Of a stretch of 64,000 bases of DNA, positions 4,900-60,999 are shown piece after piece. The DNA is taken from positions 496,001-560,000 of the forward strand of contig BLSF01000022.1 in assembly GCA_012862575.1 (NCBI GenBank). The letters run 5' to 3'. The DNA comes from Parietichytrium sp. I65-24A. Its lineage: Eukaryota > Sar > Bigyra > Thraustochytrida > Thraustochytriidae. Every line of letters begins with the position of its first letter. Positions within the stretch are counted from its first letter, which is position 1. Both the position numbers and the translations under genes were made by a program. The notes under the pieces were generated by a model that worked only from the letters and a program-made list of their open reading frames with translations, was not told the origin of the DNA and made no database searches.

Positions 4900-7800
4900 A
4901 TGCGCGCGATGCGGCTTGCCGCTTTACTCGCGGGCATAGTGGCAGCTTCGAAAGGGTGCGAAAGCGACGTAGACTGCTCGGATGGCCTCGTTTGCAGCCC
5001 GAACGGAGTGTGTGTCGCTGAACACTGTTTGAACGGTGTTTTAGACAGCACAGAGACGGATATTGACTGCGGTGGAGCTTCGTGCGAGCTGTGCCAGGTC
5101 GGCGAGTCGTGCGAGATAGACGCAGACTGTGAAAGCGGCGTGTGTGATGGTAACGAGGCAGTTTGTTTGCACGCCTCTTGCGCCAACGGTGTATTAGATG
5201 GTAATGAGACAGATGTGGACTGCGGCGGTCCGCTTTGTATGCCCTGCGAGGATCTGCTGGCGTGCGCGACTGGCGCAGATTGCGCGAGCGGCCTCTGTGA
5301 CGGAGAGAGGTCCGTTTGCCTTCCTTTGACGTGCCGCGACGGCGTGTTGAACGGCAACGAGACAGACGTGGACTGTGGCGGCCCGGCTTGCGAGGCGTGC
5401 GAACTCGGGATGGACTGCAGGCAAAATAAGGACTGCGAGAGCGGCCTCTGCAACTCTGACCGCGGAGTATGCATGCCGCTTTCGTGCACTGACCATATAT
5501 TGAACGGGAATGAGACGGACGTAGACTGCGGTGGCCCACTATGCGCGCCATGCGAGGCCCAGATGGAGTGTTTGAGCCACGAGGATTGTCTGAGCGGGAT
5601 GTGCGATGGCAAGCGGGGGGTCTGCTTGGACGGTTCGTGCGCCGATGGGATTTTGAACGGCCAAGAATCCGACGTAGACTGCGGAGGCCCCGCCTGCCCG
5701 CCTTGCGAAGAGCGCAAGATGTGCAAGGGCGATGAAGACTGCGACAGCGATATCTGCTGTCCACATTTTAAAGTTTGTTTGGCGGAGTCCTGCCGCAATG
5801 GCAAGATGGATCAGAACGAAACAGACATTGATTGCGGAGGCGAAGGCTGCACTCCATGCCCTGCTGGGCAGGGGTGCGACAAGGACTTTGACTGTCTTTC
5901 GCAGAGGTGCGATTTGGAGTTTCGGCAAATTTGCCTGCCAACGTGGTGCTTCGATGGTAAGCAGGGTTTGAATGAGACTGACGTGGACTGTGGCGGGGAA
6001 TTGTGCCCGCCTTGCCCGGATGGCGACCGCTGCGTCCGGGACCAAGATTGTGAGTCAGACCTCTGCGAGCCTGACTCGGGCAAGTGCTTACCGGCGTCTT
6101 GTGGAAATGGTCGCAAAGACTGGAATGAGACCGATGTGGATTGCGGTGGCCCGGATTGCCCGCCTTGTGAAGAGAAGGGGGCTTGTATATCCGACGGCGA
6201 CTGTGCTGAAGGGTCTTGTGACCCTGACGCGGGCATTTGCGTTCGCATTGCCTGCACGAATGGCGTTCGCGATGGCAACGAGACAGACGTAGATTGCGGC
6301 GGCCCACATTGTCTGCCTTGCGCTCTCGGAGAGCGCTGCCTTGATGCTGAGGATTGCGTTGTCACTGAGTCCTCGTCGGGCAAACCTATCACCTGCGACT
6401 TGTCAAGACAGGTGTGCTCCTTCTTGTCGTGTATGGACGGAGTGTTGAACAATAACGAAACATCAGTGGACTGCGGCGGCCCGTTCTGCCCGCCTTGTGA
6501 GGCAGGAGAAGATTGTGCCTCCAACAGCGACTGCGAAAGTAACCACTGCAGCCCAGAGAGCGGGCTCTGTATGCCCAAGTCTTGCTTTGACGGGACTCTC
6601 AACGGCAATGAAACAGACGTTGATTGCGGCGGTGGCCTGTGCGCGCCATGCGCAGCAGGCAAAGACTGTGACCGTGCTACAGACTGCAAGAGCAGTATCT
6701 GTGACACCGAACAAGGCATTTGCTTGGATGCTTCGTGTGTTGACGGGCGAAAGAATGGTCTTGAGACCGACGTGGACTGCGGTGGTCCTACCTGCTCGAG
6801 GTGCGCAGATATGCAGTCATGTATGTCTCCTACGGACTGTGTCAGCGAGTCTTGCTGCGAGGAAAGGAGCATCTGTTTGCCTGTGCACTGCTCAAACTCT
6901 ATCCTGGATGAGGAGTTTAATGAAACCGACGTGGATTGCGGTGGAAACATCTGTGGCCCGTGCCAAGATAATCTCATGTGTGAACGAGATTCAGACTGCA
7001 AGACCTCAGTTTGTGATCAGGCAGCCGGAAAATGCCTGGCTGCGTCATGTATGAACGGCGTTCTTGACGGTGAAGAGACCGAGGTGGATTGTGGTGGGTC
7101 GCTGTGCGCACCGTGCGAGATCGGAGGGGGCTGCGTTCTTGACCGTGACTGCGTGTCTGGTCTTTGTGGGGAGAACTTTTGGGGAAGCCAAGAGTCCTCC
7201 CTGGGCACGTGCCTCCCAAAGTCATGTTCTAATGGAGTCAAGGATTCTTTCGATGGGGAGGCTGAAACTGATGTGGATTGCGGGGGTGCTTACTGTCCGC
7301 CATGCCAAATTGGAAGGAGCTGCGCAGATGATGGTGATTGTATTTCTGGAGCTTGCGACGGCGACAAGGGTGTCTGCGTTTTGGCGTCATGCAGAAACAA
7401 GTTGCTTGACAAAAACGAGACTGACGTCGACTGTGGCGGGCCCGACTGCTTGCCCTGTGAAGACGGCCTCATGTGCGTACTTGGGACAGATTGTAACAGC
7501 CACCTTTGTGACGCTGCCGCTGGACGCTGCCTCAGCCAGTCGTGTGCAAACGGCATTTTGGATGGTAACGAAACCAGCGTCGATTGCGGTGGACCGATCT
7601 GCTTGCCTTGCGAGGACGGATTGGAGTGTATTTCAGATAGAGACTGCAAGTCTGAAAGGTGCAACGCAGAGTCTGGCCTTTGCATGCCCACCTCGTGCTT
7701 TGACAACGAGCTGAACGGAAACGAAACTGACATTGATTGCGGTGGATTGATGTGCCGTCGCTGTGCAGCCGGAATGGAGTGCGACTCGCACTCTGATTGC

Positions 7801-10800: not shown

Positions 10801-13800
10801 GGTTTCGAATATGATATTCTCAACGCGCTCGACTTCACCAGCTTGCTGAAAGCAGAGTTTCTTTGCCCGCAGCGATTTGGTTGCCGCATTGCAACAGAGC
10901 TCGGCCCAGCTGTGGATGCTTTTGCTCAGGTCATCACGAGCTTTTATGACTTTAGCGCTATGGCAGATGTGCGATTAAGTGTGGACGGAAGCCCAGATAG
11001 CCACAACCTCTATCTCTTGGACGGCTTTTTTCTTGGCGGCCGCCCAGATCGAATTCAGCAACGGCTGACCATCACAGGTAGTCTTCGACTTGGGCGTCTG
11101 TCCGTTGTTGGCTATGGTGGTGTGCTCGACTTGAACGCCGCAGACGAAGTTCATGTCGAGCGAGGCATTGTCGTGCTGCCTGGTGGGCGTATCGAGCTTG
11201 GCGGGGCCGTGTCTCTCAGTGGGACCTCGTCGTCTTTCATCCTCAACTTTGGCGAAATACTGATCTCGGAATCCTCTGCCGCTCATTCTCGCGAGAGCGG
11301 CGAGGAATCTTTTTCTTCTGCTATCATTCCAGTGCTTGATCTCCAGAGCCTGTACAACTTTGGAACGCTCCGATTTGAGTCCTTCGCTGGATTGCAGATT
11401 TCAGACCGTCTGGAGATCACTCTTTTCCCACCATCCAATACTCTTTTCGAGGACGGCTCTACCGTGCACTGCACATCGGCTAGCGAACGCTGCACAATGA
11501 GAAACCTCGGAATCGTTGAAAGTCTTGGAACCGTATCCCTAGATGTCACCCTTGCCAACGAGCGTCTGGTCCACGTCCAAAAAGGGTCATTCGAGTGCGC
11601 ATTCGGGATTGTGAACAAAGGGCTTGTTCTTGTGGATACCGGTGCGACAATTCGCGTGAGCTCCCGCGGAGTCTTTCAGAATTTTCCCCGGGCAGCCTCT
11701 GGCTTTGACATTCTTTTCGGCTCAAAAATGGAGGACCCCCAGGCGCCAAAGCGCAAACGACTTTCTCTCGCTCGAGACCTGGGCCGCCATTCGCTTATTG
11801 TCAGGGGCGGTCTCGTGGTACAAAAAGATTCCACCCTGTTGCTTTCGGATGACACTCTTGCAACTTTTGTCGGGCCATGCTCAATTGATCTTCAAACTGA
11901 TTCGATCCTTTCTGTCGAGAAGCAAGCTGCGGTTTTCCTTGTCCCGGCTGCTGAAGGGAATCGCTGTGTGCAGAGAGGCCGGACTCCAAATCAGTTCAAG
12001 GGCTCTATTCATTTGCGCCAAGGTGGAGTGTTGGAGAGCTTTGTGCGCTCGGCATCTCAGTTCTCTTTGGAAGGGCCTATCCGGCTCGGGCAAGGTGGAC
12101 AGTTTAGTGTCTTGGAGTTGATCGACGAAAAGTCCAAGCGAAGAATGCTAAGTACAGTGAATACCGGAGTGAGTGGGCCAGTTGCTACCACTGTCTTCAA
12201 GAACGACGTCTTTACCGACTCGGGCTTTCATGTGGCCAGAGGGCAGCGTCTAATTTTCAAAGGTAGACTTGTTGTGACTGGAGATGCAACTATCGATGGA
12301 GAACTTGTCATTGGCGGCACTGCTCTCTTTTCCGGGTTTGTGCAAAACAACGGAGTATTGAGTGTGAGTGAACAAGGCCGTGTTCTGAGCGTTTCTAAAT
12401 ATGGAGGCTCTGGGGAATTGCGCCTGGAAAACGGCGCACTTTTCCACTTTGTGGGAGATGCTGTGATAGAAGGTGATGTTTACAACGAGGGCAAGCTCTC
12501 GGTTGGTATGGATACAAAGGCTTCCGTGACTTCTTTTGAGCGCACTATGTTTAGTTACTCAAATTCGCGGGCCGGAATTCCTTGCCCTTTGCATAGTGAG
12601 CAAACTAGCTCCGTGTACAACTTAGACGTTCTTTTCCGCTCGTCGCTCTCACCGCAACTGAACTGGCGACTTCCCCTTCAAGTTTGTTCGACGACATCGA
12701 TTGTAGATCTTGGGAATGAGCTCTCCGATCAGCTCTTGCTTGGATCGCTTGGTACATCCAAGCGCGGTCTCCAGGAGGATAGCAGCTCCCTGGGTCTAAG
12801 CTTCTCGCTCTCCGATGGTGGCCCAAGTCTTGAGCACTCCAGGTCTAGATCTCTCAGCGCACAAGGTATCCGAAATGGGGCATCTCTGATCATGTCTGTC
12901 AATGTCGGTCACGAAGCAGCTGTATCCCTCGCCTTTGCGGAAGCCAATAACGTCCTTTTGGACCTCCAACCAAGTGCAGCAGTCGACTTTCGTGGCAATC
13001 TTATTGATAGAGGAGGAATTTTTGTGGCTGAAGATGGTGATGTCGGCGTGTACGGATTTCGTAATCTGCTCGAACGCCCACTTGAGAATTTTGGCCGGAT
13101 ATATATCGGACCTGACGCTCAAATCGACGTCTCGGACGTATTGGAGAGCTCTGGAAACATCACCATCACTGGAAACGTGACCTTAAGCGAAGCAGCCGTT
13201 TTTTCCATGGATGTTTATTTAACTGGCTCTCTCACAATTACGGGAACCGGGAATGCAACTTTCGAGAGCACCTTCGATAACAAGGGTATCTTGAGCGTCT
13301 TGGAAGGCGGTAGTGTCGCATGCTTTGGGGTGAGCACTTTTGAAGCTGACAGTGTTACCCAAGTTGATGGTGACATCGAGTTGAGTTACGGCAGCTCTAC
13401 GTCCATTGAGGGCGACTTTTCGGTCTCGGAAACTGGTACGCTAATTGTCGACGGGGCGCAACTCGATGTATTTAGTGCCTTTGTTTACTTGGAAGGTACA
13501 ACCTATATCACTCGAAGTAGCATGGTTGTCATCGAGAATGGCGCTTCTGTGATAGTTGACGGGGAATTCTCTGTCGACGATGAATCCCAAGTGATTGTCG
13601 AGCCAGGCGGCACCCTCAAGCTCGAAGGCAACTCACTTTTTAGAAGTAACTCAAACGCTGATGTCGGGGGTCGTCGCGCACTTGGCCAATCAAAGCAAAT
13701 CACGTTGCTCAATAAAGGAACTGTGAAAGCCGGACGAAACTCTGCAGTCACCTTTGACAACACGAACGTTGGTGGTGCCGGGTTCTTGAGTGCTCAGGAA

Positions 13801-31800: not shown

Positions 31801-34800
31801 GGAAAAGATTTACTCGTCGAACTTGTTTCGTTTGGAGGTTTCTGTTCAGGCGCTCTGTCGCGTCAGCAGCCATGCAACGTGGACGCGGAGTGTCACGGAT
31901 CTTTCGAAGAAAGCTCGGAATGCGTGTTAGAGACTGGCATATACTTTGGAGAACAAGGTGTCCACGCGGAGTATTTGGTCTTCCGTCCGAGCGTTCTTGC
32001 TCACCAGGTTCAAGTTCATGCATACCTTGATCGTGTAGTGGAGGGTGTGCATCACTCGTACATTCAAGCGCGGATTGTTGAGATCCGTGGCGCCACATTT
32101 GAGCCACTGGGGTCCAAAATCCCCCATGTGAGTGTAACTATAATCGATAGTTCGCAAACAAAGGCTGGCTTCGAACTGGCAACAAACGATGGTCCTTCTA
32201 GGTATTCAGCTTTGGTTGCAGAAGGTGGTCGGCCCGCAGTCTATGGGGTGAAGTTGACAAGTCAACCCCTCGGCTCGGTAATTGTGTCTGCAAGCTTTGA
32301 AACGTCAAAGTCTGGTGAGCAGGTGCCAATGCTTGAGCAGCCGCCAAGCCTTGTCTTCACAAGGAAAAACTGGAATGTTCCGCAACAATTCGCAGTGAGT
32401 GCTCAAAATGTCGCCGAGTTGCTAGGATCAAGCCCCCGCTCTGGCATCGCAGTGCATACGTTTTCCTCTGAAACGGATCAGTTCTATGACGAGCTCGTTG
32501 CGAAAGCCGATGCGCATGGTAATACTATGCGAATTTCCGTGGTTGACGGCAAGTCACCAGCAATCATCACGAGTGTCAACTACATTAGTCTGGCGGAAGG
32601 TGAGGCGCAAACTTACAAAGTCAAGCTATCCGCTTCGCCGGCTTCAAAGGTCACTGTCGCTGTAGCGGTACCTGACGGTCGATGCGTCCTTGGAAATCGC
32701 CGCATCTTGCGCGATCGATACTGCATGGATGATGGTGATTGCATTGGAGACTTGGCCGACGTCGAGTTCGACACCGTTGAGGAGAGTCTCTCTTCGAGTT
32801 TGGGCTGGCATGAGGAGGGTTTGGTAGTCTCGCCTCGCTTCTGTTTGCGTATGACGAACGCTGTGATGGAGCCCAGGACGTTAGCGTTCGATTCGAAAAA
32901 TTGGAACAAGTGGCAATCCGTGGCCGTGCGCGCACTTTCTGACGCGATTGCCGACTCGGATGCTTTCAATCTCACGATAAAGCACACGAGCACGAGCGCC
33001 GCGGCAGAGTTTGACGGGTTGAGTCGGAATGTGGGCCTTGATATTGAAGACGTGGATAAATATTCGCTTGAGTTTGCCGGTCCCGAACTGACACTTGCAG
33101 GCGAGCTGCGAGACATCCCAGTAATCCCCGTCGCGAAAGGTTCTTCCGTCTCCTTTACGGTAAAGCTGACTTCTCGACCTCTCGCGACTACAAATGTAAG
33201 CACTTTCGGTGGAGAAGGAATCGTAGTGGATCCATCATGGGTGGAGTTTACTGCGTCTGACTGGGATAGGCCGAGGGTCATTCAGTTAACCTCAGAAGCA
33301 GGCGGAGCTGCAGCGCTCTCTCGTCAGGAATCTCACGAGCTTTCTCTGTTGCTCAGATATCAAATTCAAAGTATGGATGTGCAGTACCGGTCGCTTGCTC
33401 CCGTTCTCGCTATCAATGTAACCGAAGACAGGCGTGCTCTTGTTCGATTTGATGGGGTGAAGAGTCAATACTTTAGGCTCTGGGAGGGGTCGAACAGTAG
33501 CGCAATTTATAGCGCGGCTCTTACTTTTGCGCCTGCAAAGGGAGAAGAAGTCAGACTGCGCATCTCTCCAAGTTCGGGCTACTGCGCCCAGCCTGTGCAC
33601 GGAGAGTCTAATGTACAGGTACCGGTAGCAGACACATTTTGCTCCTCGCCTGCAGATTGCGAGGTTGGGCAACGATGCATCCTTGGGACCAAAATTTGGG
33701 CTTCCCCAGAGGAGCTTGTGTTTTCTTCGGACAATTGGGACCAGATGCAGACTGTTCACGTTTTCTGCTTCGACGACCATATCGTTGAGGGGCCACATTT
33801 CGGGCGTCTAACACACTCCATCTCTGGAGGCCAAGTTTCCAAGCTTGGTCACAGCCAAGTGGACGATGTTCTCGTGTCCATCGAGGACAACGATGTGTTT
33901 GGTGTGGATACTGATAGACAAAGTATGCAAGTGTTTGAGACCCTTGGGTCCACTCCGTCCACTTACAATTTCCGCCTCAAATCGCAACCCACTGCACCTG
34001 TGCAGGTGTCGGTATTGGTGTCTAGCGCTGGGGATCAGCATGGTGTGCGTAACGGAGGGGGTGTCAATGATATGATTGGAATCGTGCCTCAGCTATTTAC
34101 TGTTACTAAGGAGAACTGGTCAATGTGGCGTGCAGTCAGACTCGTGGCCCTCCAAGACAACATAGCGAGCGGAATCATGAAGGTGGAGCTCACGCACTAT
34201 CTGAGCTCTCCTGACTCTGTTTACAACAACGAGTACGGTGGGGATATCTCAGTCCAGCGAATTGACGATGACGTTGCCGGTCTTCGGGTGTCAAAAACTA
34301 GAATGGACATTGTAGAGGGGGCAAGTGTATACGCGGAGAATCAAATTCAGGTACACCTCACCTCCGAGCCGGAAAGTGACGTGCTCGTTGATGTGCGCGC
34401 ATTGGAAGGCTATTGCGAAGGAAGCGAAAGGGGATCGTTCGATTTTAATAGGCCATGTGTCTCAGATTCGGATTGCAGCTCTGGACGAGTGTGCCAAATC
34501 GGTTATGGCTCGTACAGCGACGTTCATTCGTTGCGCTTTACTCCAACGAACTGGAACGTGCCTCAAGTCGTGACCGTGTTTGCTTTCGACGACTCGCTCC
34601 AAGAACCGCCAAGCCACACCTCCGGGTTACTTTTTGCTATCAGCGAAAAGTCGAGCGATGTGATGTACGCCGAGTTGGCCGCCTCTTCCAAGGCATCAAG
34701 CCTCGTGACTGTGAATATTCACGACAACGACCAAGCTGGGGTCGAGTTTTGGCCTGGAAGTGGTGCTGTAGGACGTAGCGTGGACACCATATACTGGGTT

Positions 34801-37800
34801 TCCCTCACCTCCAGGCCACTCAGCTCAGTCACAATTCAACTGTCTGCAGACTCTCCGATTATCCTTGAGAACGTCAAGCTGACGTTTACGGCGCAAGACT
34901 GGGATCAGCCGAGACCGGTCAGGGCTTGGTTGAGTGTGTCGTGGACCTCTGCAACGCAAAGCTTTGCAGATGATTTCACCATAGTTCACCATTTAGTATC
35001 CTCAGACTCCAATTTTGCCAACGTCAAGCCGCTGCAACGAGCTGTGCAGGTCACCCAGGTTCCTGTTCCTGCCGTTCGGGTCGAAATGGACGAGGCGCTG
35101 ACTGTGGTGGAGGGAGGAGCTGGAACGGCATTTCAACTCTCTCTTACGACCGAGCCTTCTTCAGATGTGATAGTGACCGTTTCTGCGCCTTCTGGAGTCT
35201 GCTTTGGAGCAAGAGTGCGCGAACCGCATTACGAGATGCTCTGCGATCCTGCGGCGACACTAGCGAAGGGTTGCGATTCATGCAGGCGAGGAATTGGCAT
35301 GAGCGCAGAGCCTCAGCTTCTTCGTTTCACTGCTTCCAACTGGAGCGTCCCACAGACTGTGAAGGTATCCAAAGCTGATAACGAGATCGACGAGCGCAGA
35401 ACTAGATACTTGAGCCATCGCCGCGTGTCTAGGCTATCTTATCAAACAGAGAGTATGGATGCCCGGTACCACAGAGTAAAAACTCCATTAACCCCTGTTC
35501 TGCTTGTAGATGACGATCGTGCAGGGGTTAAACTCTCCCTTCGCGACGTGTTAACTGGGAGCGAATCAGAGGTTGAGCTATTGGCTGACGGTGATGGTCT
35601 GGTGATTTCAGGGTTGGCTTTGCCGAAGGTTGTGGAAGGCTCTTCCCTCGAGATTACAGCTACTCTACTTTCAAAGCCGTGGGCGGACGTCACATTGTCC
35701 TTCATGTGGGATGTAAACGGAAAGGTGCAGCAATGGTTACTGACGTTCCCTGCAGCATCGTGGAGTGATCCACGGTCGATTCACGTTCAAGTTGGCGACA
35801 ATGACGTTGTTGAAGACACAGGGAACAAGGAAGTGAGCTTGCTCGTGAGCTTGTCTTCCCTAGATGCTCTGTACAGCCGCGCGGCAGAAGATCTTCTTGT
35901 GAGTGTCCTCGACAATGAGTGCAGGGTTGGGGAGTGGAGCTCATGGACGGTGTGCAGCAAGGCTTGTGGAGCTGGTGTGGAGCGCCGTTACAGGCCCATC
36001 ACCTACGCTTTCGATCAAGAAAAAGGTGGATGTCCTTACAGAACCATAGAATCCCGAGGTTGCAATCTTGGGCCATGCGAGTCTCCCTTAGCGGCGTCGG
36101 ACTCGAATAGAGACATGCTCGAATTTTCACTCAAGTTGGGCTCCAGTCTTTATGCGTGGCGGTCATCCAACAGCAGTGGAATGTCCGCGAGCATGGTCTT
36201 GCAGATGGGACGAAATGGTGTGGAGGACATTATCGCTCATGCTCTTGGTCTTCAGCGACATCAAACTGCGATTGCTTCGGTGCAAGAGACCTTGGGCGGA
36301 GGGTTGCAGCTGACCAATTTGCTGTACCCAGTGTCCGGGCAGCGAGTGGAGGAGTTGGAGAACCTTGTCCGTGAGCAGCTTGCAGACAAAGAAAGTGCGC
36401 TCAGCACCTCGGCTCTCGTGAATCAGAACGTGATTAGCGCAGACGCCGTGCGGTTTCAGACACTGCAGAAGAGCAACTTTGCTCTATTCTGTGAGTCTTC
36501 AGAGTTATCAAATACCAACCACCGCATCGCTACGGCAGCTGCTTGCACCGGCTGTGAGCAGCCTGAGCACGACACTGTTTACTGCTGTATAGTGGGCTCT
36601 AGCACGATGTATGGTAGCTTGGGTGGCGGGAGTTCGGTCTCTGAGTCGCGCTGTATCCTCGGTTTGAACAACGTCTCGAAGAGTTATTGCCGCGTTTTGA
36701 GTGTGAAAGGGGAGGGGTGTACATTGGGCTTGCGAGCAAGCCGATGGGCGTATGCTTCCGCTGGGTCGCTCTTGGCTTTGGTGGTGAGCGTTGTTGCCTT
36801 GGCAGTGTATCTAAAGTTGCGGCCGTCTGGCACAATGCAGAATGACTGGTTCAAAACTGCGCGAAGCAGCTGGTATTCTGGAAACAGCGCTTTTAAAAAG
36901 CCCGGAAAAGGCAAGCGGCGAGCGCAGTCTGGGACAAGTGCAAGTGTTGATGGCGGAGAGTCGCAGCGGATGCTGGACTCAGTTGACGATGGGATGTCAG
37001 CTTTTGGGGAGGCTGAAGGTCCTTGGAACTCCAATGTGGTGGGCAGTGCCCAGACTGGAAGCAAAAAGAGTTTTGAGTCGCTCTCCCCGGCGGAGAGCGT
37101 TCAGAACGAGTCTGTGTCGGAAGAGCAAGAGGTGCTACAGCTTTCGCTGGCAGCTCTTTTTGTTGGTCCAGAGCCAAAGGCAGACGATTTATACCCATCT
37201 CAGCGAGTGGTGGTCCACTACGAGTATGATGATACCTACTACCCGGGACGAATTCTACGAAAGCACGCGGAGGATTCAACTTATGAGGTTCTTTTCGATG
37301 ATGGGGATGAGGACGATGCAGTTGATTCGCATTGCCTTCGACTTTATCCGATGCTTGGCCAAAGTGGATCATCTGTAATGGATTCTAGCAGAGCATCTAA
37401 CCCCGAAAGCCACTATCAGTCTAGTGATGACGGGTGCGTGGATGCGCGCGAATTTGAAGTTCGCTTGGTGAAGCACAGCAGTCTAGGGATGGAGCTCGGC
37501 TTGACGGTATCTGGTGAAGTAGTTGTCACAAGTTTTGTTCCGGTTGCTTCTAGCCTTGACGGCGTCGGTGAAGCAGAGCGCTGTGGAGCGATTGCGCCCG
37601 GCGATGAGTTGATTGCAGTGAACGAAAAGCAGGTTGAGTCGCTTGACGATGCTTTGGAGGAGCTTATTAGGAGCGAGAATGACGTTCTTCTTCGCTTTCG
37701 AACGACTCGGCCACTCGCTCTGGTTCAAGTAGGGGATGTCGTGGAGGTCCTCAACCAGGAAACAGGGCGCTGGGTGCTCGCACGAGTGGACTCGTTTGAC

Positions 37801-38448
37801 AAACCAACAAAGACATATTCGGTACACTATGAAGAATGCCCACCGGAGCAAGGTGTGGAGGAGCAAAGGATAAGGTCTTTCCTTGCCATAGGTACCCGAG
37901 TTTTGGTAAAGTATGACGGCGCCGGGGTAGCGTTCCAGGGACGGATTTCCAGTGTTCGTAGTGACGGAAGCTACAAGGTGGCGTTCAGCGATGGCACGGA
38001 GGAGTGTGTCCCTCGCACATGGATTTCGGCGGATCACCCAAACAAATCAGCCGAGGATCTCGAGCTTGTCTCAGCCAACGACGATCCGGCAATGTTGAAC
38101 TTTCTCTTGTTTGGGGAGAGTGGCAGACCGCCGCGAACCGAGTCAGCGCCTAATCAAGAAACGTTGCTGGATCGTTTGAATGCAGATCAATTCGAGGTGC
38201 TCTTGGACACGGAGAAAGGTCTTGGTCTCAAATTGGGGATGACGAAGAGCGGATTTGTAATAGTCACAGGCTTCAAAGACTTGGAAAACGGCGAAAAAGG
38301 ACCGGCTGAAGCTTGTGGAAAACTCCGTGATCAAGACGTGCTACTCTCCGTCAATGGAAAGCGAATCATGGGAGAAACTTTTGAGACGGTGGCGGAGTTG
38401 ATCAAATCTTCAAGTCCACAGCTGAAGATGACCTTTGGTCGCGTCTGA
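4900..38448 (+). CDS. Giant modular type I surface protein (11,182 aa) with Cys-rich, solenoid, Calx-beta, REJ-like, TSP1, Tudor-like and PDZ modules
   Basis: This is one uninterrupted 33.5-kb reading frame. The ATG at 4900 is the first in frame, has A at -3, and starts a good signal peptide (MRAMRLAALLAGIVAASKG). By residue, the order is: 34 DCGG-type Cys-rich repeats (about 20-1817); a Cys-containing linker (1825-1891); a beta-solenoid-like region (about 2050-3690); a Cys cluster (about 3889-4004); two fibronectin-II-like domains (4027-4167); about 26 Calx-beta-like repeats (about 4345-7970); a REJ-like region, an EGF-like domain and a helical region (about 8040-8640); about 12 further Calx-beta-like repeats (to about 10337); a thrombospondin type 1 domain (10341-10393); one transmembrane helix (about 10616-10640); and a cytosolic tail with Tudor-like and PDZ modules. 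The architecture suggests a very long adhesin or matrix receptor coupled to a cytosolic scaffold. The closest analogies are ADGRV1 (many Calx-beta) and polycystin-1 (REJ), but there is no seven-helix or channel domain. The ligand is unknown. Confidence 0.93.
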   Translation: MRAMRLAALLAGIVAASKGCESDVDCSDGLVCSPNGVCVAEHCLNGVLDSTETDIDCGGASCELCQVGESCEIDADCESGVCDGNEAVCLHASCANGVLDGNETDVDCGGPLCMPCEDLLACATGADCASGLCDGERSVCLPLTCRDGVLNGNETDVDCGGPACEACELGMDCRQNKDCESGLCNSDRGVCMPLSCTDHILNGNETDVDCGGPLCAPCEAQMECLSHEDCLSGMCDGKRGVCLDGSCADGILNGQESDVDCGGPACPPCEERKMCKGDEDCDSDICCPHFKVCLAESCRNGKMDQNETDIDCGGEGCTPCPAGQGCDKDFDCLSQRCDLEFRQICLPTWCFDGKQGLNETDVDCGGELCPPCPDGDRCVRDQDCESDLCEPDSGKCLPASCGNGRKDWNETDVDCGGPDCPPCEEKGACISDGDCAEGSCDPDAGICVRIACTNGVRDGNETDVDCGGPHCLPCALGERCLDAEDCVVTESSSGKPITCDLSRQVCSFLSCMDGVLNNNETSVDCGGPFCPPCEAGEDCASNSDCESNHCSPESGLCMPKSCFDGTLNGNETDVDCGGGLCAPCAAGKDCDRATDCKSSICDTEQGICLDASCVDGRKNGLETDVDCGGPTCSRCADMQSCMSPTDCVSESCCEERSICLPVHCSNSILDEEFNETDVDCGGNICGPCQDNLMCERDSDCKTSVCDQAAGKCLAASCMNGVLDGEETEVDCGGSLCAPCEIGGGCVLDRDCVSGLCGENFWGSQESSLGTCLPKSCSNGVKDSFDGEAETDVDCGGAYCPPCQIGRSCADDGDCISGACDGDKGVCVLASCRNKLLDKNETDVDCGGPDCLPCEDGLMCVLGTDCNSHLCDAAAGRCLSQSCANGILDGNETSVDCGGPICLPCEDGLECISDRDCKSERCNAESGLCMPTSCFDNELNGNETDIDCGGLMCRRCAAGMECDSHSDCLSGMCDSSLGTCLASSCSDGIQNGFESDVDCGGELCAQCDLGLNCVSDADCESSVCCDVHHVCLPRSCRNGKLDFNETDVDCGGNTCSPCEVGLTCDLDHDCISESCNQDRQLCMPKTCNDGRKNGNETDVDCGGPYCAPCAVGDQCIFNADCIADVAFCDSAHGICYPLSCSNMRQDDDETDVDCGGENCAPCEDGSVCESGLDCVSGACDPDAGVCIPHTCTDGIVNGDETDVDCGGSKCAPCQVANYCLKDKDCDSGHCDDFLGKCIPASCVDGILNWNETDVDCGGPFCAPCSDGGNCRNVKDCVALCNEEKEICMPFTCTDGVQNGNETDVDCGGPLCPSCTGLHRCESNRDCSSEFCDTRLFRCMPSECNDHTVSGSKTDVDCGGPVCSPCEDGLSCQRASDCLSGVCDDQSKRCLPTSCADNIMNGNETDVDCGGADCLPCIKTGSSCLEDRDCGAPNHECDRELEICLPRSVMARKLALLPKSCTNGVQDGDETDIDCGGVSCMPCSSAGLTCRANSDCSDGLTCDPSASICVKSTCKNSHQDGFETDVDCGGLECAPCEDGHTCQSDGDCSSKRCDASSNICLKGTCFDGVHNNNESDTDCGGECELKCGEKQSCNSISDCAKGLSCSENEALCLKPHCSNGVQDMDETDTDCGGLSCQPCNRRAVCSENSDCKSNFCSPVLSLCLPQSCGNGVQDGAETDVDCGGEYCAACPDLRACQQNSDCMGDSFCSADGMCRSASCTNRVQDGRETDVDCGGGDCQPCEGVGSSSCLVDSDCASGACSVEGICIAWSCRNGAKDGEETDVDCGGPFCVACDNGLGCLDHDDCSSGFCDHVVGQCKKPAVEDESVVDCTGRRVTNRDCASRTYGYTSCEQHLDDSICDDGQFVSDSGIELNFNCPAFSCDRGACGACRSPGEPLALPGVDYAKLNQTHFETSTQLERYMRWQEAYASEYNGGITSMRNEFFLSSNKLFDIRRYSQIDFSLLNDVEGFGFEYDILNALDFTSLLKAEFLCPQRFGCRIATELGPAVDAFAQVITSFYDFSAMADVRLSVDGSPDSHNLYLLDGFFLGGRPDRIQQRLTITGSLRLGRLSVVGYGGVLDLNAADEVHVERGIVVLPGGRIELGGAVSLSGTSSSFILNFGEILISESSAAHSRESGEESFSSAIIPVLDLQSLYNFGTLRFESFAGLQISDRLEITLFPPSNTLFEDGSTVHCTSASERCTMRNLGIVESLGTVSLDVTLANERLVHVQKGSFECAFGIVNKGLVLVDTGATIRVSSRGVFQNFPRAASGFDILFGSKMEDPQAPKRKRLSLARDLGRHSLIVRGGLVVQKDSTLLLSDDTLATFVGPCSIDLQTDSILSVEKQAAVFLVPAAEGNRCVQRGRTPNQFKGSIHLRQGGVLESFVRSASQFSLEGPIRLGQGGQFSVLELIDEKSKRRMLSTVNTGVSGPVATTVFKNDVFTDSGFHVARGQRLIFKGRLVVTGDATIDGELVIGGTALFSGFVQNNGVLSVSEQGRVLSVSKYGGSGELRLENGALFHFVGDAVIEGDVYNEGKLSVGMDTKASVTSFERTMFSYSNSRAGIPCPLHSEQTSSVYNLDVLFRSSLSPQLNWRLPLQVCSTTSIVDLGNELSDQLLLGSLGTSKRGLQEDSSSLGLSFSLSDGGPSLEHSRSRSLSAQGIRNGASLIMSVNVGHEAAVSLAFAEANNVLLDLQPSAAVDFRGNLIDRGGIFVAEDGDVGVYGFRNLLERPLENFGRIYIGPDAQIDVSDVLESSGNITITGNVTLSEAAVFSMDVYLTGSLTITGTGNATFESTFDNKGILSVLEGGSVACFGVSTFEADSVTQVDGDIELSYGSSTSIEGDFSVSETGTLIVDGAQLDVFSAFVYLEGTTYITRSSMVVIENGASVIVDGEFSVDDESQVIVEPGGTLKLEGNSLFRSNSNADVGGRRALGQSKQITLLNKGTVKAGRNSAVTFDNTNVGGAGFLSAQEGATVMCKGSKLDLEGGVELLGTLGGESTCELNFGGSSSVSGVVSLGKETVVIVEDQVILDRDAKWIAEGSFSIAPGAVFTANGKLRSVQAVLNKGTLSIGSSRHEPSALEGGSLSSGTISVSGHLQLQDINVFDGPFIVQEGGHVELLEDTQASVRSLLDHSGSIALASGSVIGCHSAQCSSSTESSLSGIGSVVVHPDAQWVLEGSVDLAEDPVFENVMNCSLGGVLEIGGPASVAPPINNHGVLQISTDGDLKSTGVVNARGSVVVDGGLHLRGVGSFDGRLEGFGIVNVGNKSRVDFQGDVALQGSLRSERGSNVTIWSDNAVLQGSAHFEGSLLVTTMATLAISSPSSTVGRVANFISDGLFTNDGSFIIDTFAKVGGTFESNGNCSILSRGKVLVMGQFDLLEGELSLEDGELEVHAEGEMLLDGTSTVVGSPLSVLQLSGAMNVNRGALMDLGGVFTSSSNGILTVSGGQVNLGGSASVEGYVDNYGTLIVSNAASLTGSGRNLGASFADLNLRAGSHFAVRPAATVSITGTLDSVGEIFLMPQSELIFVEDSSSKLRLSPTETYSQLLSLGTITVEQDALLESEVNAVNTGELDVHGHMRLLGGTISLTEDKEDIISRVPQYLSQDLGAISNDDIGGMTVLRDGRLSGWAQIDGDVVLDGAISPGADSNTAGEMVILGDLKSRASMSVLDVRVLDSQDGSSMPSYGTLHVQGRITEPIAVTVSLQRSYGESLRVTPLVGDRALSEFASISSVVASGPSHLELSAEGFTAATLVDGARRRALRVDVSMAGAHGPMPFNADLMFGRTDSVTSSEIHALDETSTQESDLSDLDDSLYIVEMWVGGLRYPETLRDRRFLAVIDKFLGMFPTMSIRRMNAIPPRLEDHVVNVSSSASRRARYKEGQGGSTAELHPGGLLFTVNLTCFSSVECKSFCDAYRATEAQMHAELLDRSLSAGARDLALRLGNGCSRADSYSSTEVEQWSQTVCLTDGKEGTFHQVGVKCVHECKCLAPEDCSCFMDSGKWASCTCGPFLAVKEEFSAGSLSNAGTARQEHTCAANGIGSVKAGTQCTFPFLYQGDLHYNCVGTGFGGDGFCVIGGKLAGCSCSLAAARGRQIGGASDSLNGVKQRASVAIADITGCSTNGIGVAPAGDSCVFPFAYKGKMHFRCADREKLLFNGEPGGWCLNRKGERGGCHCSAAGESKESSKSDSPISQTRSVSQTAEVVPGLVTFVEAPRVVAVGETSVQIAAAVNVASSVKVYATLEGNPAPRLKQILSMGDEQSSGIVDSEDDGDDAFFTSTLGAAFDLQNGLLEGLEPETRYDIYLYPVPSDPKERKMMQVSEDILKRFMLRGISTGKRENVRDLRARQGRLLLNVEHLNVKEGADIADEYGVRLSQQPQSSVTVSLILPGRNQLEAQPLQMTFTPINWNSTQVVQVFAVDDGILEDSPHTDLIMHQVQSNDEHFNYAEEDFPVSVFIEDADDALQNSPVVIRPSKLKLEEGGAGGAYSIRLANAPKSPVTVQVIVPPGDDVIVDPEEVVFTAKNWAAPQTVRVRALDDRVFEDFIQVVQLLHKVASKDPEFDRSAPSNVALYINDTSSQLSAPQIQLSPTALEVEEGKTTQFTLQILPGSYAPRSVVTITMNATRRMSFRPSKIVIPQLDWAAVFPVSVFVERDGIAEGGEESFSEIFFDVVSSDDAYDGLELSELPVKVTDTDVTGLILSRASSVAELNEVNPDTSISYWVSLSAKPLGTVQVYLHVQDGFCLHNRNGPLFDLGPCKIDTDCFQSAMDSSVKNFECRKETTAYIGNDIPDNILYFREESWDVPQEVVLLPYLDNVHEATPHLVKVVHEVSSSDSRFSQAPSYVLDPEDGLLRVSEDAFMAEIVDVDVPGVEFSVPLVSFMRETEDSSTTYLVKLSTKPWAAVSVDLSLAAEDLVDFSRDEHVSGLLNFDPPQLHFSSSDWNATKLVRVSLDSSEMGFRSGSDQYYTSIVHKCRSQDRAYDGLAEELSAMVIEDASTRIAVSSHALETVEGGEAVALSVRLASRPVVSDSHASDAVQILFGLVDGVCVTSQGEVVPSKSGSLSCDSDSDCRTALEAVDSGALCSRFSDKIKIHPSELHFATSNWHVSQSVMISALEDEHAALLGVSRYLLSVHALSTDPKFNDDIPTCVAFNEKGKCVKKDTSRALHGNVTLSVKDNDVPGVSWGVPSLHVSEGGEDQSAALRLSTKPRGAVRVEFMTSEPGNLVVEPAEIFFSPSNYSRPAKVSIRAINDNFASETDRRAASVFAKTTSAADEAYDRITDELEVTIQDDERAGVHVSHDVLLLNEDGNPTVYNLTLSSDPGGSVQLEILASLPLDVVHPKRKLLSFDSSNWNIPQHVQVRALGDGERNCDNLENADGSIHVQCDPREVVLVHKIQASRGTRGYDHDMVAGEIIARVYDRHASIATYPSHLDLFEHADFPEKFRALMTQKPETNVLVDVHVEGPNSERIKVSASPLVFTPDNFDAVREIPVVVQSDFVYQPPANYRVVLQVRGSSEIDVSYRSIPQQFITLKLTDDKFPGLITRGLNRDGIEMPPGVQLALEEGEHSGKASASVAVSLASQPAGTVTVRVVSNDPGHLVANPSEVSFKVGEWDQVQVIHFTAVNDNIFHPTGSLQVSVAFHTASTGDNLYDSLKPQVMLVDIVDDETPGILVQSISKSHSDLTLDEEVGETLQFTVQLLSQPIADVTLFLDSLSGSCANSDGYFDGELCNRESACQGKAICMQDTTVWSYPSKLTFTSSNWNIPRVFSVGAFKDGILEKDVHRGEVIIRSESIGDPVYNKAVEISFHNQELVDGRMTFSVLDSDMAAIIVSKSSSILSSDEVIAVDEDSWETISVRLLSKPASSVELVLAERGLGFLALEEDVVVLDASCWDTGKQIRVRALKDPYAWAGGERFSSLDLVASSKDRSYNGLRANVEFRILDRDVAGVILETSGAENEIHPEGSCFEYQIRLASLPWARAALGDDAQVASVQLQSMDGYCQRRESKIITGPDFGTPCMLDCGSDFYCARYASIDVFPTEIVFSASNWNIPQTISVCVLKDDVIEPTVHETYISHHINSADPEFAESKPTDLVVKVGESRQANIVVSQRALRLEEGGHAESYTVRLASKPWSAVTVYIGATAEAATSVSKLVITPEAWRKEHLVTVVAVDDSSPELPNPHHARITHSSVSADPTYDGLEGEFVVLNIHDNDEAESLIGLFRDPEGLSPLGDEPMVLRESMPSSNQTYYVRLMREPSSRVDVDVRPNNGHCVLSGRSQYDLHCSVNADCKAYCSETDCFSSAVCQTNSKAFVQGSGVLRFTSDNWSMLQPVVLLPFADKVAEPKRHRAKVMHSATSIDLAFNQAKLGAFVDILDADVASFLVVQNWDGALLEGDMSQVHSYTLQLSSIPIAPVEVQISASFGLKLSVGGDVGQCSDLMCQLIFTKSNWSVPAKVEVAVVDDEYADGNQERGDLRSERIVHLARSQDPSYRRVEHEMLVDVQDNDHAGVQLSQETLLLYENATGSQRVQQYGARLLSRPRASFCTSPLSGSVHYDRPCNRDADCLLPMTMSLDEMSNTVPLTCVVQEAPLAIVASTKSGHCLVGVSRLPAFDVLCRDDGDCGTGNTCHKHTKVHLWTASAAPEPTERVVAQFSQSNWSSTVHISVSAYADEVRELDYHDSQILHQVISADPKYSWGVVVPEMHCTIVDGDRAGLLVLNGETNERLDSTSRLRITEGASLPVLIQLVSSPNSVVRLRWTVPNGLVVLYQGSRRRELELGSYAHRNPVRLDVVAEQATGEESLLEFTTASQDLNYRMEKSDSFKLAVTVLRAQRETLELSSHSVSVSEGGNVAAISVHLGSKPVISGGQVVTVSIAAFNGFCMSAESGPRFGTNCMTNSDCAVGETCRANTKLRTSVSELVFTAATWSAPQIVLIEAYDDHVVEPLLDVSQVLFTSHCLHDAAFDSITESVHVEILDNDKASLIAMQPMPAVPGIPQAVNFRLSSEPWSPVTIALSDFTRGVALASGNKGQIVFTPANWSSHASVYLEADKAVDYSLAVRVTESRDQSYRGAPKVPFHFAVVEEEALRGPALWLDQHSLILQEGGLEDHYTVSIQSKMKLPSNAIVKVELKYDSTKLSVHPESWEFLGSDLSDARNTKVTVKAVDNLVRSGLDEAIIRHKLLMKGGGAGRLGDYAVEQDLVVSIMDDDVGEVLIAPRVIDLSLGANTMPYSMVISSKQLSPTAYPLRVTPVWDNGLCSEMPETRCQRSQPGCTCVRLKELGITVEPKERLVTWERASSPVTFTITALKSVYSRELLAGNLLLTLNHELAPFQGTLPAAVTVPSQDVIISSDDVALVSGGLHVKERNILSNMEVDFAGCGSESQMLTIALRSKPLMPVRVKLSQGVEKPLESDDSCRALSAKIQFSGKNGLVGVDTPLVTRLLNGTGFAVVIGGNGAIYVVQQWISPSLAAFSRCNTADPSCAYPSKLLEPESELIIGSEIAFFRTSWDAFMFVLRDFRCSLVGAHARETKLSLSSATLEFSPQNWNVSQSVSVKRPCEDTPISNKATLHAILESVHGPGEFTRDPSYSGKTEEITLRFPELHKHVVVAHSEELVLVEGDSSGVQVFISLSAEPNSTVSVPSSQPLVRVHLYPSSMSCVGTGEPCQPQLETMCDCSLPAGVEASSTVLEFNKYNWMIPQSVTLRAIDDFLDESRSKAGLQRNISIGVESLDPIYHGAGHVLETLVVEDDYAGVHFDKDLIFVSEGGPGAHLGVSLQSQPLHPVKLRFGAHPELDIAFPNALNGDGYLEFSSENWNVKQFVLVAKTRDSIAEPKPYSTALVPLLESQDISYSDAMNGGFAPKSGVEVLLIDTHWAGVQLSENAVAVGEDSVGVSLSLMSRPKGPVTIEPIVPVFLIKEDRLNACTGRVEKQEVWTPLVAVIPEIVTVYPDSWNDSVAFEVINLNENLWMPEHKVTVNFTVSSEADLDYNSPLLRQRTCGASLWHASALSDPRGDAFEHGSHSIPVGSRLVCKHIDGLCCPMVTEPSLLVRVLNQAWEEPPKMLHANMTSSGRHVAVSFDKVVNVTESIGAVFPCSDLFAGISESYAPCSSAEHNAVTKNLEEAFGAGSTCSWTSEMQAVIALGHNAQIRANDFLHLTENALIGAHSSRRFASGAISVTGPCDAKQEVGMFPSPLKARPATGLLSLCRVSAQSGECIFTDRGDALTSEFEISATNWATARAQDQSSAQYWFAVIEVGRKEECLRSCACTHMRRLNAAGENPFVRTVLPAGNLAILGVMEDAFGNRACSAVSVTIADYKFGRQTVLAFQETNVKPLLADAIHREDESRALQLYHISFDLLHAKGLSNRRLLLDNGLIDCRADSDCLNGGACVNEPYFSASRRRYCKCLKGFAGARCDISTNGPSSSQILRQFAELVEAFHNGSISLKLAPELISHLMDVSVYYLNLESADALFATLKRAAAQSPMGLSDSLKVTESLDALLEWVHKWSPFASSHSGRLSACGVAEVKDLYAKSVFPLLKMAVQNHGLALSEHRFESIGFVSPSGAVHFSLLPTIMAQISGEPSISTRAYLMAHNVFRCDAKTPMMVFAEYAKNRAIQSLSTLDGFEERELVCAKSVLGTHGSQISVCPQSCACDMSQEETLAVSKFSITVPKLRITPSSGELSVTVGSSGTQMSLGLDLPEGVSIDDLKIRLVVSDSSEHWTSSSGLKNCVSSRTGAVGASCENRWKDCSLDQVCIHLERADKAVSVHPSIISYGSANATSKQVVAVRALGNELSSARDRNVWLHFVVEGTTDAAEVLKASVAPVKIHLRNLARVGLRSTPTTLGLREGDTQLSFLTVSATHRPRGTLLVSAQYDSSQVQVFPPKFELTEANWQTGVALSVMAVDDRISEPTFHWANVTLDLERIPEEDPFYSASSAQGLASSLIGILVEDNELAQFSLSASSLKLHEDAADPQQLTVSVEEDSLRGKDLLVELVSFGGFCSGALSRQQPCNVDAECHGSFEESSECVLETGIYFGEQGVHAEYLVFRPSVLAHQVQVHAYLDRVVEGVHHSYIQARIVEIRGATFEPLGSKIPHVSVTIIDSSQTKAGFELATNDGPSRYSALVAEGGRPAVYGVKLTSQPLGSVIVSASFETSKSGEQVPMLEQPPSLVFTRKNWNVPQQFAVSAQNVAELLGSSPRSGIAVHTFSSETDQFYDELVAKADAHGNTMRISVVDGKSPAIITSVNYISLAEGEAQTYKVKLSASPASKVTVAVAVPDGRCVLGNRRILRDRYCMDDGDCIGDLADVEFDTVEESLSSSLGWHEEGLVVSPRFCLRMTNAVMEPRTLAFDSKNWNKWQSVAVRALSDAIADSDAFNLTIKHTSTSAAAEFDGLSRNVGLDIEDVDKYSLEFAGPELTLAGELRDIPVIPVAKGSSVSFTVKLTSRPLATTNVSTFGGEGIVVDPSWVEFTASDWDRPRVIQLTSEAGGAAALSRQESHELSLLLRYQIQSMDVQYRSLAPVLAINVTEDRRALVRFDGVKSQYFRLWEGSNSSAIYSAALTFAPAKGEEVRLRISPSSGYCAQPVHGESNVQVPVADTFCSSPADCEVGQRCILGTKIWASPEELVFSSDNWDQMQTVHVFCFDDHIVEGPHFGRLTHSISGGQVSKLGHSQVDDVLVSIEDNDVFGVDTDRQSMQVFETLGSTPSTYNFRLKSQPTAPVQVSVLVSSAGDQHGVRNGGGVNDMIGIVPQLFTVTKENWSMWRAVRLVALQDNIASGIMKVELTHYLSSPDSVYNNEYGGDISVQRIDDDVAGLRVSKTRMDIVEGASVYAENQIQVHLTSEPESDVLVDVRALEGYCEGSERGSFDFNRPCVSDSDCSSGRVCQIGYGSYSDVHSLRFTPTNWNVPQVVTVFAFDDSLQEPPSHTSGLLFAISEKSSDVMYAELAASSKASSLVTVNIHDNDQAGVEFWPGSGAVGRSVDTIYWVSLTSRPLSSVTIQLSADSPIILENVKLTFTAQDWDQPRPVRAWLSVSWTSATQSFADDFTIVHHLVSSDSNFANVKPLQRAVQVTQVPVPAVRVEMDEALTVVEGGAGTAFQLSLTTEPSSDVIVTVSAPSGVCFGARVREPHYEMLCDPAATLAKGCDSCRRGIGMSAEPQLLRFTASNWSVPQTVKVSKADNEIDERRTRYLSHRRVSRLSYQTESMDARYHRVKTPLTPVLLVDDDRAGVKLSLRDVLTGSESEVELLADGDGLVISGLALPKVVEGSSLEITATLLSKPWADVTLSFMWDVNGKVQQWLLTFPAASWSDPRSIHVQVGDNDVVEDTGNKEVSLLVSLSSLDALYSRAAEDLLVSVLDNECRVGEWSSWTVCSKACGAGVERRYRPITYAFDQEKGGCPYRTIESRGCNLGPCESPLAASDSNRDMLEFSLKLGSSLYAWRSSNSSGMSASMVLQMGRNGVEDIIAHALGLQRHQTAIASVQETLGGGLQLTNLLYPVSGQRVEELENLVREQLADKESALSTSALVNQNVISADAVRFQTLQKSNFALFCESSELSNTNHRIATAAACTGCEQPEHDTVYCCIVGSSTMYGSLGGGSSVSESRCILGLNNVSKSYCRVLSVKGEGCTLGLRASRWAYASAGSLLALVVSVVALAVYLKLRPSGTMQNDWFKTARSSWYSGNSAFKKPGKGKRRAQSGTSASVDGGESQRMLDSVDDGMSAFGEAEGPWNSNVVGSAQTGSKKSFESLSPAESVQNESVSEEQEVLQLSLAALFVGPEPKADDLYPSQRVVVHYEYDDTYYPGRILRKHAEDSTYEVLFDDGDEDDAVDSHCLRLYPMLGQSGSSVMDSSRASNPESHYQSSDDGCVDAREFEVRLVKHSSLGMELGLTVSGEVVVTSFVPVASSLDGVGEAERCGAIAPGDELIAVNEKQVESLDDALEELIRSENDVLLRFRTTRPLALVQVGDVVEVLNQETGRWVLARVDSFDKPTKTYSVHYEECPPEQGVEEQRIRSFLAIGTRVLVKYDGAGVAFQGRISSVRSDGSYKVAFSDGTEECVPRTWISADHPNKSAEDLELVSANDDPAMLNFLLFGESGRPPRTESAPNQETLLDRLNADQFEVLLDTEKGLGLKLGMTKSGFVIVTGFKDLENGEKGPAEACGKLRDQDVLLSVNGKRIMGETFETVAELIKSSSPQLKMTFGRV
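4957..10350 (+). repeat. Array of 34 Cys-rich DCGG repeats in the giant protein
   Basis: Each unit is about 53 residues (159 bp) and follows the pattern C-x-NGxxxGNETDVDCGGxxCxPCxxGxxC, then a DC, a CD and a final C. I counted 34 occurrences of DCGG. The second half of each unit resembles small disulfide modules of the Dickkopf-N/EB type; similar repeats occur in secreted proteins of bacteria and protists. The acidic D-x-N-x-T-D-x-D core resembles a calcium-binding loop. In 19 of the 34 units it also contains an N-x-T/S glycosylation sequon (NET or NES), mostly in the first 27 units. Cysteine spacing is well kept, so the array is probably folded and functional. Confidence 0.88.
11041..15960 (+). 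other. Beta-solenoid-like region of the giant protein
   Basis: About 1,640 residues with almost no cysteine are made of short Gly-, Val-, Ser- and Asn-rich strands with recurring patterns such as LNKGTL, NNGVLSV, VDGGLHL and SVSGHLQL. They repeat every roughly 20-25 residues. This is the look of a right-handed parallel beta-helix, as in bacterial filamentous adhesins and autotransporter passengers. Basic R-R-x-L type sequences interrupt it. The fold assignment is by pattern only. Confidence 0.6.
16978..17401 (+). other. Two fibronectin type II-like domains of the giant protein
   Basis: Two copies of a four-Cys module share the signature NGIG, then C-x-FPF-x-Y-x-G, then x-C, and end in a Cys-x-Cys pair (CSC, CHC). 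The FPFxYxG core and spacing match fibronectin type II/kringle-like domains, which often bind collagen-like or glycan ligands. A Cys-dense stretch at about 16564-16910 with CKCLAPEDCSC and CTCG precedes them and is not assigned. Confidence 0.7.
17932..28850 (+). repeat. First Calx-beta-like array (about 26 repeats) of the giant protein
   Basis: Repeats of about 130-150 residues share this order: an EGG turn, Y-x-V-x-L-x-S-x-P, V-x-V, a strand ending in F-T-x-x-NWN-x-PQ-x-V-x-V-x-A-x-DD, an IxH...S-x-D-x-x-Y stretch and a closing V-x-I-x-D-N-D-x-A-G-V. This matches the Calx-beta fold pattern, including the closing acidic DxDxxG motif expected to bind calcium. I counted 26 units by the conserved W/NW position; units 18, 21 and 22 are divergent. 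Several units carry an extra Cys-rich insert between strands, for example at about 19091, 20007, 22018, 22864, 23668, 24655 and 25495. Confidence 0.8.
29020..30840 (+). other. REJ-like region, EGF-like domain and helical segment between the two Calx-beta-like arrays
   Basis: Residues about 8041-8310 show REJ/polycystin-type features: PKMLHANMTSSG, VSFDKVVN, CSDLF, TCSW, ALGHNAQIRANDFLHL, then LPAGNLAILGVMEDAFGN. An EGF-like domain with six Cys follows at about 29968-30093 (CLNGGACV, CKCLKGFAGARC). A helical, Leu/Ala-rich stretch with a few Cys runs to about 30840 and could be a GAIN- or REJ-associated region. The REJ reading is by motif and needs a profile search. Confidence 0.5.
30850..35910 (+). 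repeat. Second Calx-beta-like array (about 12 repeats) of the giant protein
   Basis: The repeat pattern is the same as in the first array, with conserved Trp positions at about 31510, 32380, 32900, 33260, 33735, 34110, 34550, 34900, 35340 and 35760. Units with a Cys-rich insert (at about 31030, 31840, 32680, 33580, 34405 and 35190) alternate strictly with units lacking it. The period of insert plus plain unit is about 790-880 bp. Confidence 0.8.
35920..36078 (+). other. Thrombospondin type 1 domain of the giant protein
   Basis: Residues 10341-10393 carry the classic WSSWTVCSKACGAG signature (W-x-x-W-x-x-C-S-x-x-CG-x-G), then R-x-R and closing Cys residues in C-P-Y and CNLGPC. This is a typical extracellular adhesion module and lies close to the membrane. 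Confidence 0.85.
36745..36819 (+). other. Single transmembrane helix of the giant protein
   Basis: Residues about 10616-10640 (WAYASAGSLLALVVSVVALA and a few more) are uniformly hydrophobic and are followed by basic residues. Together with the N-terminal signal peptide this gives type I topology, with about 10,600 residues outside and about 540 inside. Confidence 0.85.
36820..38445 (+). other. Cytosolic tail of the giant protein: Tudor-like, PDZ, two Tudor-like, PDZ
   Basis: The tail starts with a Ser-rich linker. A Tudor-like module at about 37186-37350 reads RVVVHYEYDDTYYPGRIL and VLFDDGDEDD. PDZ 1 at about 37453-37710 has GMELGL, GAIAPGDELIAVN and a closing L-x-F strand. Two more Tudor-like strands sets lie at about 37726-37880 (GDVVEVLNQETGRWVLARV) and 37891-38030 (GTRVLVKYDG, YKVAFSDGTEE). 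PDZ 2 at about 38191-38445 has GLGLKLGM, GKLRDQDVLLSVNGK and ends the protein. PDZ domains normally bind C-terminal peptides, so the receptor carries its own scaffold instead of a PDZ ligand. Confidence 0.75.
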
Positions 38449-60994: not shown

Positions 60995-60999
60995 TTATT
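60994..60999 (-). terminator. AATAAA overlapping the stop codon of the SLATT-like gene
   Basis: TTTATT on the plus strand reads AATAAA on the coding strand and overlaps the TAA stop at 60995-60997. If it is used as a polyadenylation signal, the 3' UTR would be only some 15-30 nt. It may be coincidence. Confidence 0.3.

Follow-up and report, generated by a model that had tools for sequence, protein, structure and literature searches.

The giant open frame and its modules

The window, by which we mean the whole 64,000-nt stretch of Parietichytrium sp. I65-24A DNA that was analyzed, carries on its forward strand a single reading frame with its first in-frame ATG at 4900, its stop at 38448, and a length of 11,182 codons; the frame is open at least from 4792. 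A preliminary description of this DNA had proposed a stop-free single frame of 33.5 kb encoding 11,182 residues, and its coordinates (4900 to 38448, forward strand) proved to be exact. In base shuffles of the same stretch (n = 30, three forward frames), the longest stop-free run was 254 codons. Codon position 1 was the G peak in 22 of 22 intervals of 1.5 kb across the giant frame, and Tandem Repeats Finder (period up to 500) returned 19 rows in the window, none of them inside the frame. On these three grounds, a chance origin of the 11,182-codon frame is excluded. Our impression is that a single-exon frame of this size is very long for a protist.

The genes around the giant frame look eukaryotic in type, with neighboring frames for a subtilase, a Ras-superfamily GTPase, a protein with a TFIIS-like (Med26) domain, one of metallo-beta-lactamase fold, and one resembling glucosidase II beta (PRKCSH); searches of the window for tRNAs and Rfam families gave neither. 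The subtilase (Peptidase_S8; positions 3 to 2150, forward strand) has a hydrophobic segment near its C terminus, and its frame runs off the start of the window; the giant gene begins 2.7 kb downstream of it. On the reverse strand, positions 60995 to 62584 encode a protein with two hydrophobic segments and, in its C-terminal part, Tudor-like stretches, which scored 19.9 bits with Tudor_5 (cut-off, 31) and resembled the Tudor domains of the giant protein in pairwise comparison (E = 3e-5). This organism may make a practice of placing Tudor-like domains on membrane proteins, of which these would be two cases.

Table 1. Features of the giant gene, in window coordinates
Feature	Positions	Strand	Basis
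Entire gene as one open frame, 11,182 aa	4900..38448	+	ORF and codon-phase signal
Putative signal peptide	4900..4953	+	by eye
34 Cys repeats (~51 aa), sequon before DCGG in 19/34	4954..10356	+	repeat count and alignment
All-beta, probably beta-solenoid region, limits by eye	11017..16059	+	12892-14151 modeled, low confidence
Two fibronectin type II (FN2) domains, outer limits by eye	16978..17400	+	PF00040, E 1.2e-8, two stretches
Calx-like Ig repeats 1-25	17923..28815	+	iterated profile, predicted fold
Cys-containing region, earlier called REJ-like	28816..29980	+	without Pfam REJ match
EGF-like domain	29992..30087	+	Pfam on short segment, PDB sequence search
Region between EGF and second Calx-like block	30088..30975	+	Pfam on 29983-31095: EGF models only
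Calx-like Ig repeats 26-37, Cys insert/none alternating in 12/12	30976..35919	+	profile, Cys counts
Thrombospondin type 1 (TSP1) domain	35920..36078	+	TSP1_spondin, E 1.2e-12
Juxtamembrane ectodomain, Cys-containing	36079..36756	+	Pfam on 35920-36789: TSP1 models only
Transmembrane helix	36757..36813	+	hydropathy
Basic cluster KKPGKGKRR directly inside membrane	36895..36921	+	sequence
Tudor-like domain 1 (Crb2/53BP1 type)	37204..37341	+	Pfam, PDB sequence match
PDZ domain 1, start by eye	37459..37680	+	Pfam
Tudor/Agenet-like domain 2	37732..37854	+	Agenet, Pfam
Tudor-like domain 3 (53BP1 type)	37888..38004	+	Pfam, PDB sequence match
PDZ domain 2, runs to stop, start by eye	38188..38445	+	Pfam

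The segment-wise Pfam search suggested in the preliminary description recovered FN2, EGF, TSP1, PDZ, and Tudor domains and returned neither REJ nor the Pfam Calx-beta family. The expected FN2 domains were found in two stretches (PF00040, 35.2 bits; cut-off, 22.2), and the expected TSP1 domain matched both PF00090 (33.6 bits; cut-off, 21.6) and PF19028 (48.4 bits; cut-off, 41). The EGF assignment also held: a short segment scored 25.3 bits (cut-off, 21.5), and longer segments fell slightly under the cut-off. A single membrane helix had been predicted, and hydropathy analysis yielded one strong hydrophobic helix (KD 2.27; runner-up, 1.5), with FN2, EGF, and TSP1 on its N-terminal side and PDZ and Tudor on its C-terminal side. 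No ligand-binding domain was identified in the giant protein. The REJ-like module was not borne out by Pfam, either over the whole protein (E ≤ 0.01) or in a short segment (E ≤ 5); a PDB sequence search of the region gave mainly EGF-type matches. The beta-solenoid claim fared in between: the model of a 420-residue piece showed short, regular strands and had low confidence (pLDDT 45.9), and most of its weak PDB fold hits were beta-helix proteins, the best being antigen 43 (E = 0.046), while a PDB search by sequence gave no match for the region. The stretch at 11017 to 16059 is probably a beta-solenoid, with weak support from this model.

The proposed N-terminal Cys-repeat array was confirmed by counting the DCGG repeats. 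Their alignment has 11 invariant columns, 7 of which are Cys, and an N-x-T/S sequon lies directly on the N-terminal side of DCGG in 19 of the 34. No family in Pfam or NCBIfam matched the array, 206 residues of it (4 of the 34 repeats) had no match among plasmids, and its profile gave an unconvincing best E value of 0.055 against PDB sequences. The repeat, recognizable by ETDxDCG, recurs in three copies on two IMG/VR contigs (E = 6e-11 or better), two copies on one and one on the other compared with 34 in the giant protein; these three copies have L or A at the position of the sequon Asn. The Cys-rich repeat proteins concerned, around position 8000 of each contig, look bacterial, and the viral nature of the contigs is doubtful. 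Among the bacterial Calx-like loci described below (L003 to L082), no match to the Cys array was found at E ≤ 0.01.

Calx-like repeats, their bacterial relatives, and the alternating Cys inserts

A profile grown from nine seeds identified 37 Calx-like repeats in the giant protein, 25 at residues 4342 to 7972 and 12 at residues 8733 to 10340. Repeat 22, which has an irregular sequence and is long, was omitted from the first alignment; the alignment used for modeling holds 29 of the 37 repeats. One repeat modeled with these 29 aligned repeats adopted an Ig-type fold with high confidence (pLDDT 96.9). Comparison of the model with the PDB gave 133 hits at E ≤ 0.001, the best 50 of which were pilus chaperone and pilin complexes and one MSP-family protein; the NCX Calx-beta domain was not among these best 50. 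A search of the PDB by sequence was unconvincing (best E = 0.13). The preliminary description had called the repeats Calx-beta-like, and the repeats gave no match to Pfam Calx-beta (PF03160) at E ≤ 0.01, nor did a profile of Calx-beta derived from bacterial genomes match the giant protein directly, all scores being negative. However, profile-profile comparison with PF03160 gave 63.5% for the giant-protein repeats and 93.9% for their bacterial kin (profile from the first 400 of 537 matches), against maxima of 2.5% (57 valid of 60) and 1.1% (59 of 60), respectively, in shuffle controls. These observations suggest that what stands of the claim is a remote link over the core of the domain, the repeats being remote relatives of Calx-beta with a predicted Ig fold. 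A 674-residue part of the array had no match among plasmids or among phages, and no relative of the repeats was found on viral contigs.

Relatives are found in bacteria. A pattern search of bacterial genomes returned 252 matching stretches and 139 relatives, of which the best 80 were retained; the repeat was present in all 80 of these loci and in three or more copies in 57, with a total of 516 repeats at an i-E value below 1e-3, although the loci are not fully independent (L035 and L056 share a contig, and L006 looks much the same as L040). The loci are titled Planctomycetota, Verrucomicrobiaceae, cyanobacteria, Flavobacteriaceae, and others, and they share with the giant protein both the repeat unit, with its F-x3-NW motif, and its arrangement in arrays within long frames. 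Since the loci had been chosen by the NW motif, the motif was excised and each half of the repeat was retested, after the 115 of 516 repeats that lack the motif had been dropped. Matches were retained by 352 of 401 N-terminal halves and 239 of 401 C-terminal halves, compared with 0 and 0 in shuffles. By this sequence comparison, the homology of the giant-protein and bacterial repeats extends beyond the search motif. Pfam applied to six bacterial relatives reported Calx-beta at E ≤ 0.01 in three, and over the cut-off in one, at a neighboring domain.

Three bacterial loci deserve separate mention. On a Phycisphaerae contig, a single 4,259-codon frame holds 35 Calx-like repeats (L042, 272 to 12280). 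A cyanobacterial frame (L010, 8123 to 10717) pairs Calx-beta above the Pfam cut-off with Calx-like NW repeats. An open frame 10,339 codons long carries Calx-beta repeats (L090, on G003 contig 6), in the genome that also contains L027 (Calothrix).

The giant-protein repeats differ from the bacterial ones in their Cys content. At least four Cys are present in 15 of the 37 repeats (full repeat limits, repeat 26 included), whereas 0 of the 516 bacterial repeats have at least three and only 8 have at least two. The inserts that hold these Cys start with G-x-C in 12 of the 15 Cys-rich repeats, typically followed by C..D.DC and another Cys. The NCBIfam model Myxo_Cys_RPT reached one such insert only, below its cut-off (E = 0.0014; 18.7 versus 25 bits). 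By eye, the insert also resembles the latter half of a repeat from the N-terminal Cys array; profile scores were about 1 bit, and we do not claim that the two are one module.

Along the chain, repeats with (1) and without (0) an insert follow the order 0001010000101010101001100 in the first block and 101010101010 in the second. Inserts thus occur on every second repeat through all 12 repeats of the second block (26 to 37), and the first block (1 to 25) contains an alternating run of 11 with irregular ends. The 27 changes in this order were reached in 0.03 to 0.06% of 100,000 label shuffles, depending on the threshold, in what was a post hoc test. In the core columns, with the insert left out, repeats resembled each other more closely at lag 2 than they did at lags 1 and 3 (P = 0.0165), and similarity was higher among insert-bearing repeats than in mixed pairs (P = 0.004; 14-repeat labeling, with repeat 26 scored as plain). 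The simplest reading is that a two-repeat unit was duplicated. If neighboring domains are related by roughly a half-circle turn, the insert loops would come to lie on one face of the chain.

The predicted cytosolic tail and possible functions of the protein

Pfam places Tudor, PDZ, Tudor/Agenet, Tudor, and PDZ domains in this order in the tail, in agreement with the Tudor-like and PDZ tail proposed earlier. For PDZ, PF00595 and PF17820 were over the cut-off in two stretches; for Tudor, Tudor_3 (36.6 bits; cut-off, 25.8) and 53-BP1_Tudor (31.2 bits; cut-off, 22) were over theirs; Agenet, at the second Tudor position, scored 28.3 bits on the 518-residue tail (cut-off, 27) and 22.9, below it, on a longer segment. 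The best PDB sequence match of Tudor 1 and of Tudor 3 was 53BP1, weakly in each case (E = 0.017 and 0.023). As we read these alignments, four of the five positions that we take to form the aromatic cage of 53BP1 look compatible in both, and the fifth is D or T. No relative of the tail was found on viral contigs.

We consider it likely, at roughly two chances in three, that the giant protein is a type I single-pass surface adhesion receptor that couples contact to a PDZ/Tudor scaffold, a reading that starts from the observed open frame, module identities, single strong helix, and insert alternation. The preliminary description had likewise suggested a receptor; a long single-pass surface protein with a scaffold-type tail is retained from it, and its hint of a mating receptor is not upheld, because REJ was not confirmed. 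In the predicted orientation, some 10,600 residues would extend outside the cell, beginning with a distal stalk of 34 Cys repeats that would be rich in disulfides and partly N-glycosylated. The stalk would be followed by the beta-rich, probably solenoid, segment, the two FN2 domains, and the 37 Ig-fold Calx-like repeats, a chain interrupted by the Cys-containing region with its one EGF domain; TSP1 would come last, near the membrane. Such a rod, perhaps binding Ca2+, would keep the distal part off the cell and might bind substrate, matrix, or prey, and the Cys-bonded loops of alternate repeats, if on one side of the rod, could be sites of binding or stiffening. On the cytosolic side, the three Tudor-like domains and both PDZ domains may recruit partners, so that a pull or contact from outside would lead to assembly of a cytosolic scaffold. 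Tudor domains are mostly nuclear, and for this reason a pure membrane scaffold fits uneasily.

Among the alternatives, it is possible, if unlikely, that the ectodomain is shed as extracellular matrix or holdfast glue and that the tail serves for sorting and anchoring only. The 34 Cys repeats, together with the 15 inserts, would fit a cross-linkable material, a Cys-containing segment adjoins the membrane, and a subtilase gene is nearby, but a five-domain PDZ/Tudor tail exceeds the needs of an anchor. We regard as improbable a Notch-like arrangement, in which the ectodomain would serve as sensor and a cut at the membrane would release the tail, whose PDZ domains and 53BP1-like Tudor domains would then work in the nucleus. 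The Crb2/53BP1 models above the Pfam cut-off, the weak PDB matches, and the compatible cage positions agree with it, but the fifth cage position is nonaromatic in both domains. Similarly, KKPGKGKRR resembles a nuclear localization signal by eye, but basic clusters commonly follow membrane helices and are ordinary there. The subtilase is a possible protease for this cleavage by proximity only. Against the arrangement, the protein at 60995 to 62584 has two hydrophobic segments, so that Tudor-like domains may serve at membranes in this organism. Equally doubtful is a contact receptor coupled to the reading of methyl marks, in which a 53BP1-like Tudor/PDZ tail, below a giant ectodomain made mainly of bacterial-type repeats, would be freed to the nucleus or would read methylated partners at the membrane, as one of a larger group of membrane proteins with Tudor tails in this organism. 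That the assembly or gene model fuses two or more genes is very improbable, for although the single exon is very long, the frame is continuous, keeps its codon phase throughout without a DNA tandem array, and shows one kind of repeat before and after the interruption.

Comparison with known proteins

Judged against prokaryote, plasmid, phage, and virus collections, the PDB, and the open-access literature, the giant protein consists mostly of known modules in what appears to be a new combination. The giant gene unites repeat types common to bacteria with a PDZ/Tudor tail and, if conserved, would be a concrete candidate for cell attachment and contact signaling. The alternation of the Cys inserts and the ladder of sequons are new and open to structural testing; neither was seen in the bacterial relatives examined. 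In the open-access literature, at the level of titles and abstract openings, no such protein is described among the matches listed, and the terms Calx, PDZ, and Tudor each occur 0 times in the main text of PMC12221091. Calx-beta is counted among adhesion GPCR modules in PMC12716839.

Neither GPS/GAIN (whole length) nor CSPG repeats gave a Pfam match in the giant protein at E ≤ 0.01, and hydropathy shows one strong helix in place of a seven-helix region. ADGRV1, FRAS1, and polycystin-1 are poor matches, since their seven helices, CSPG repeats, and REJ, respectively, were not found.

Partial likenesses to known systems nevertheless exist. ADGRV1 combines dozens of Calx-beta repeats in a giant ectodomain with seven helices and a PDZ-linked cytosolic scaffold; the giant protein shares the giant Calx-type ectodomain and the PDZ link but has one strong helix instead of seven, and its PDZ domains lie within the protein itself. 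The FRAS1/FREM proteins, which are single-pass and combine Calx-beta with Cys-rich modules and CSPG repeats, are alike in the first two respects, whereas the N-terminal array and the tail differ. For 53BP1 and Crb2, the likeness lies in the tail, where their Tudor models match and most cage positions look compatible; in the giant protein, these Tudor domains follow a large ectodomain. The lamin B receptor is likewise a membrane Tudor protein, to which the giant protein adds a large ectodomain.
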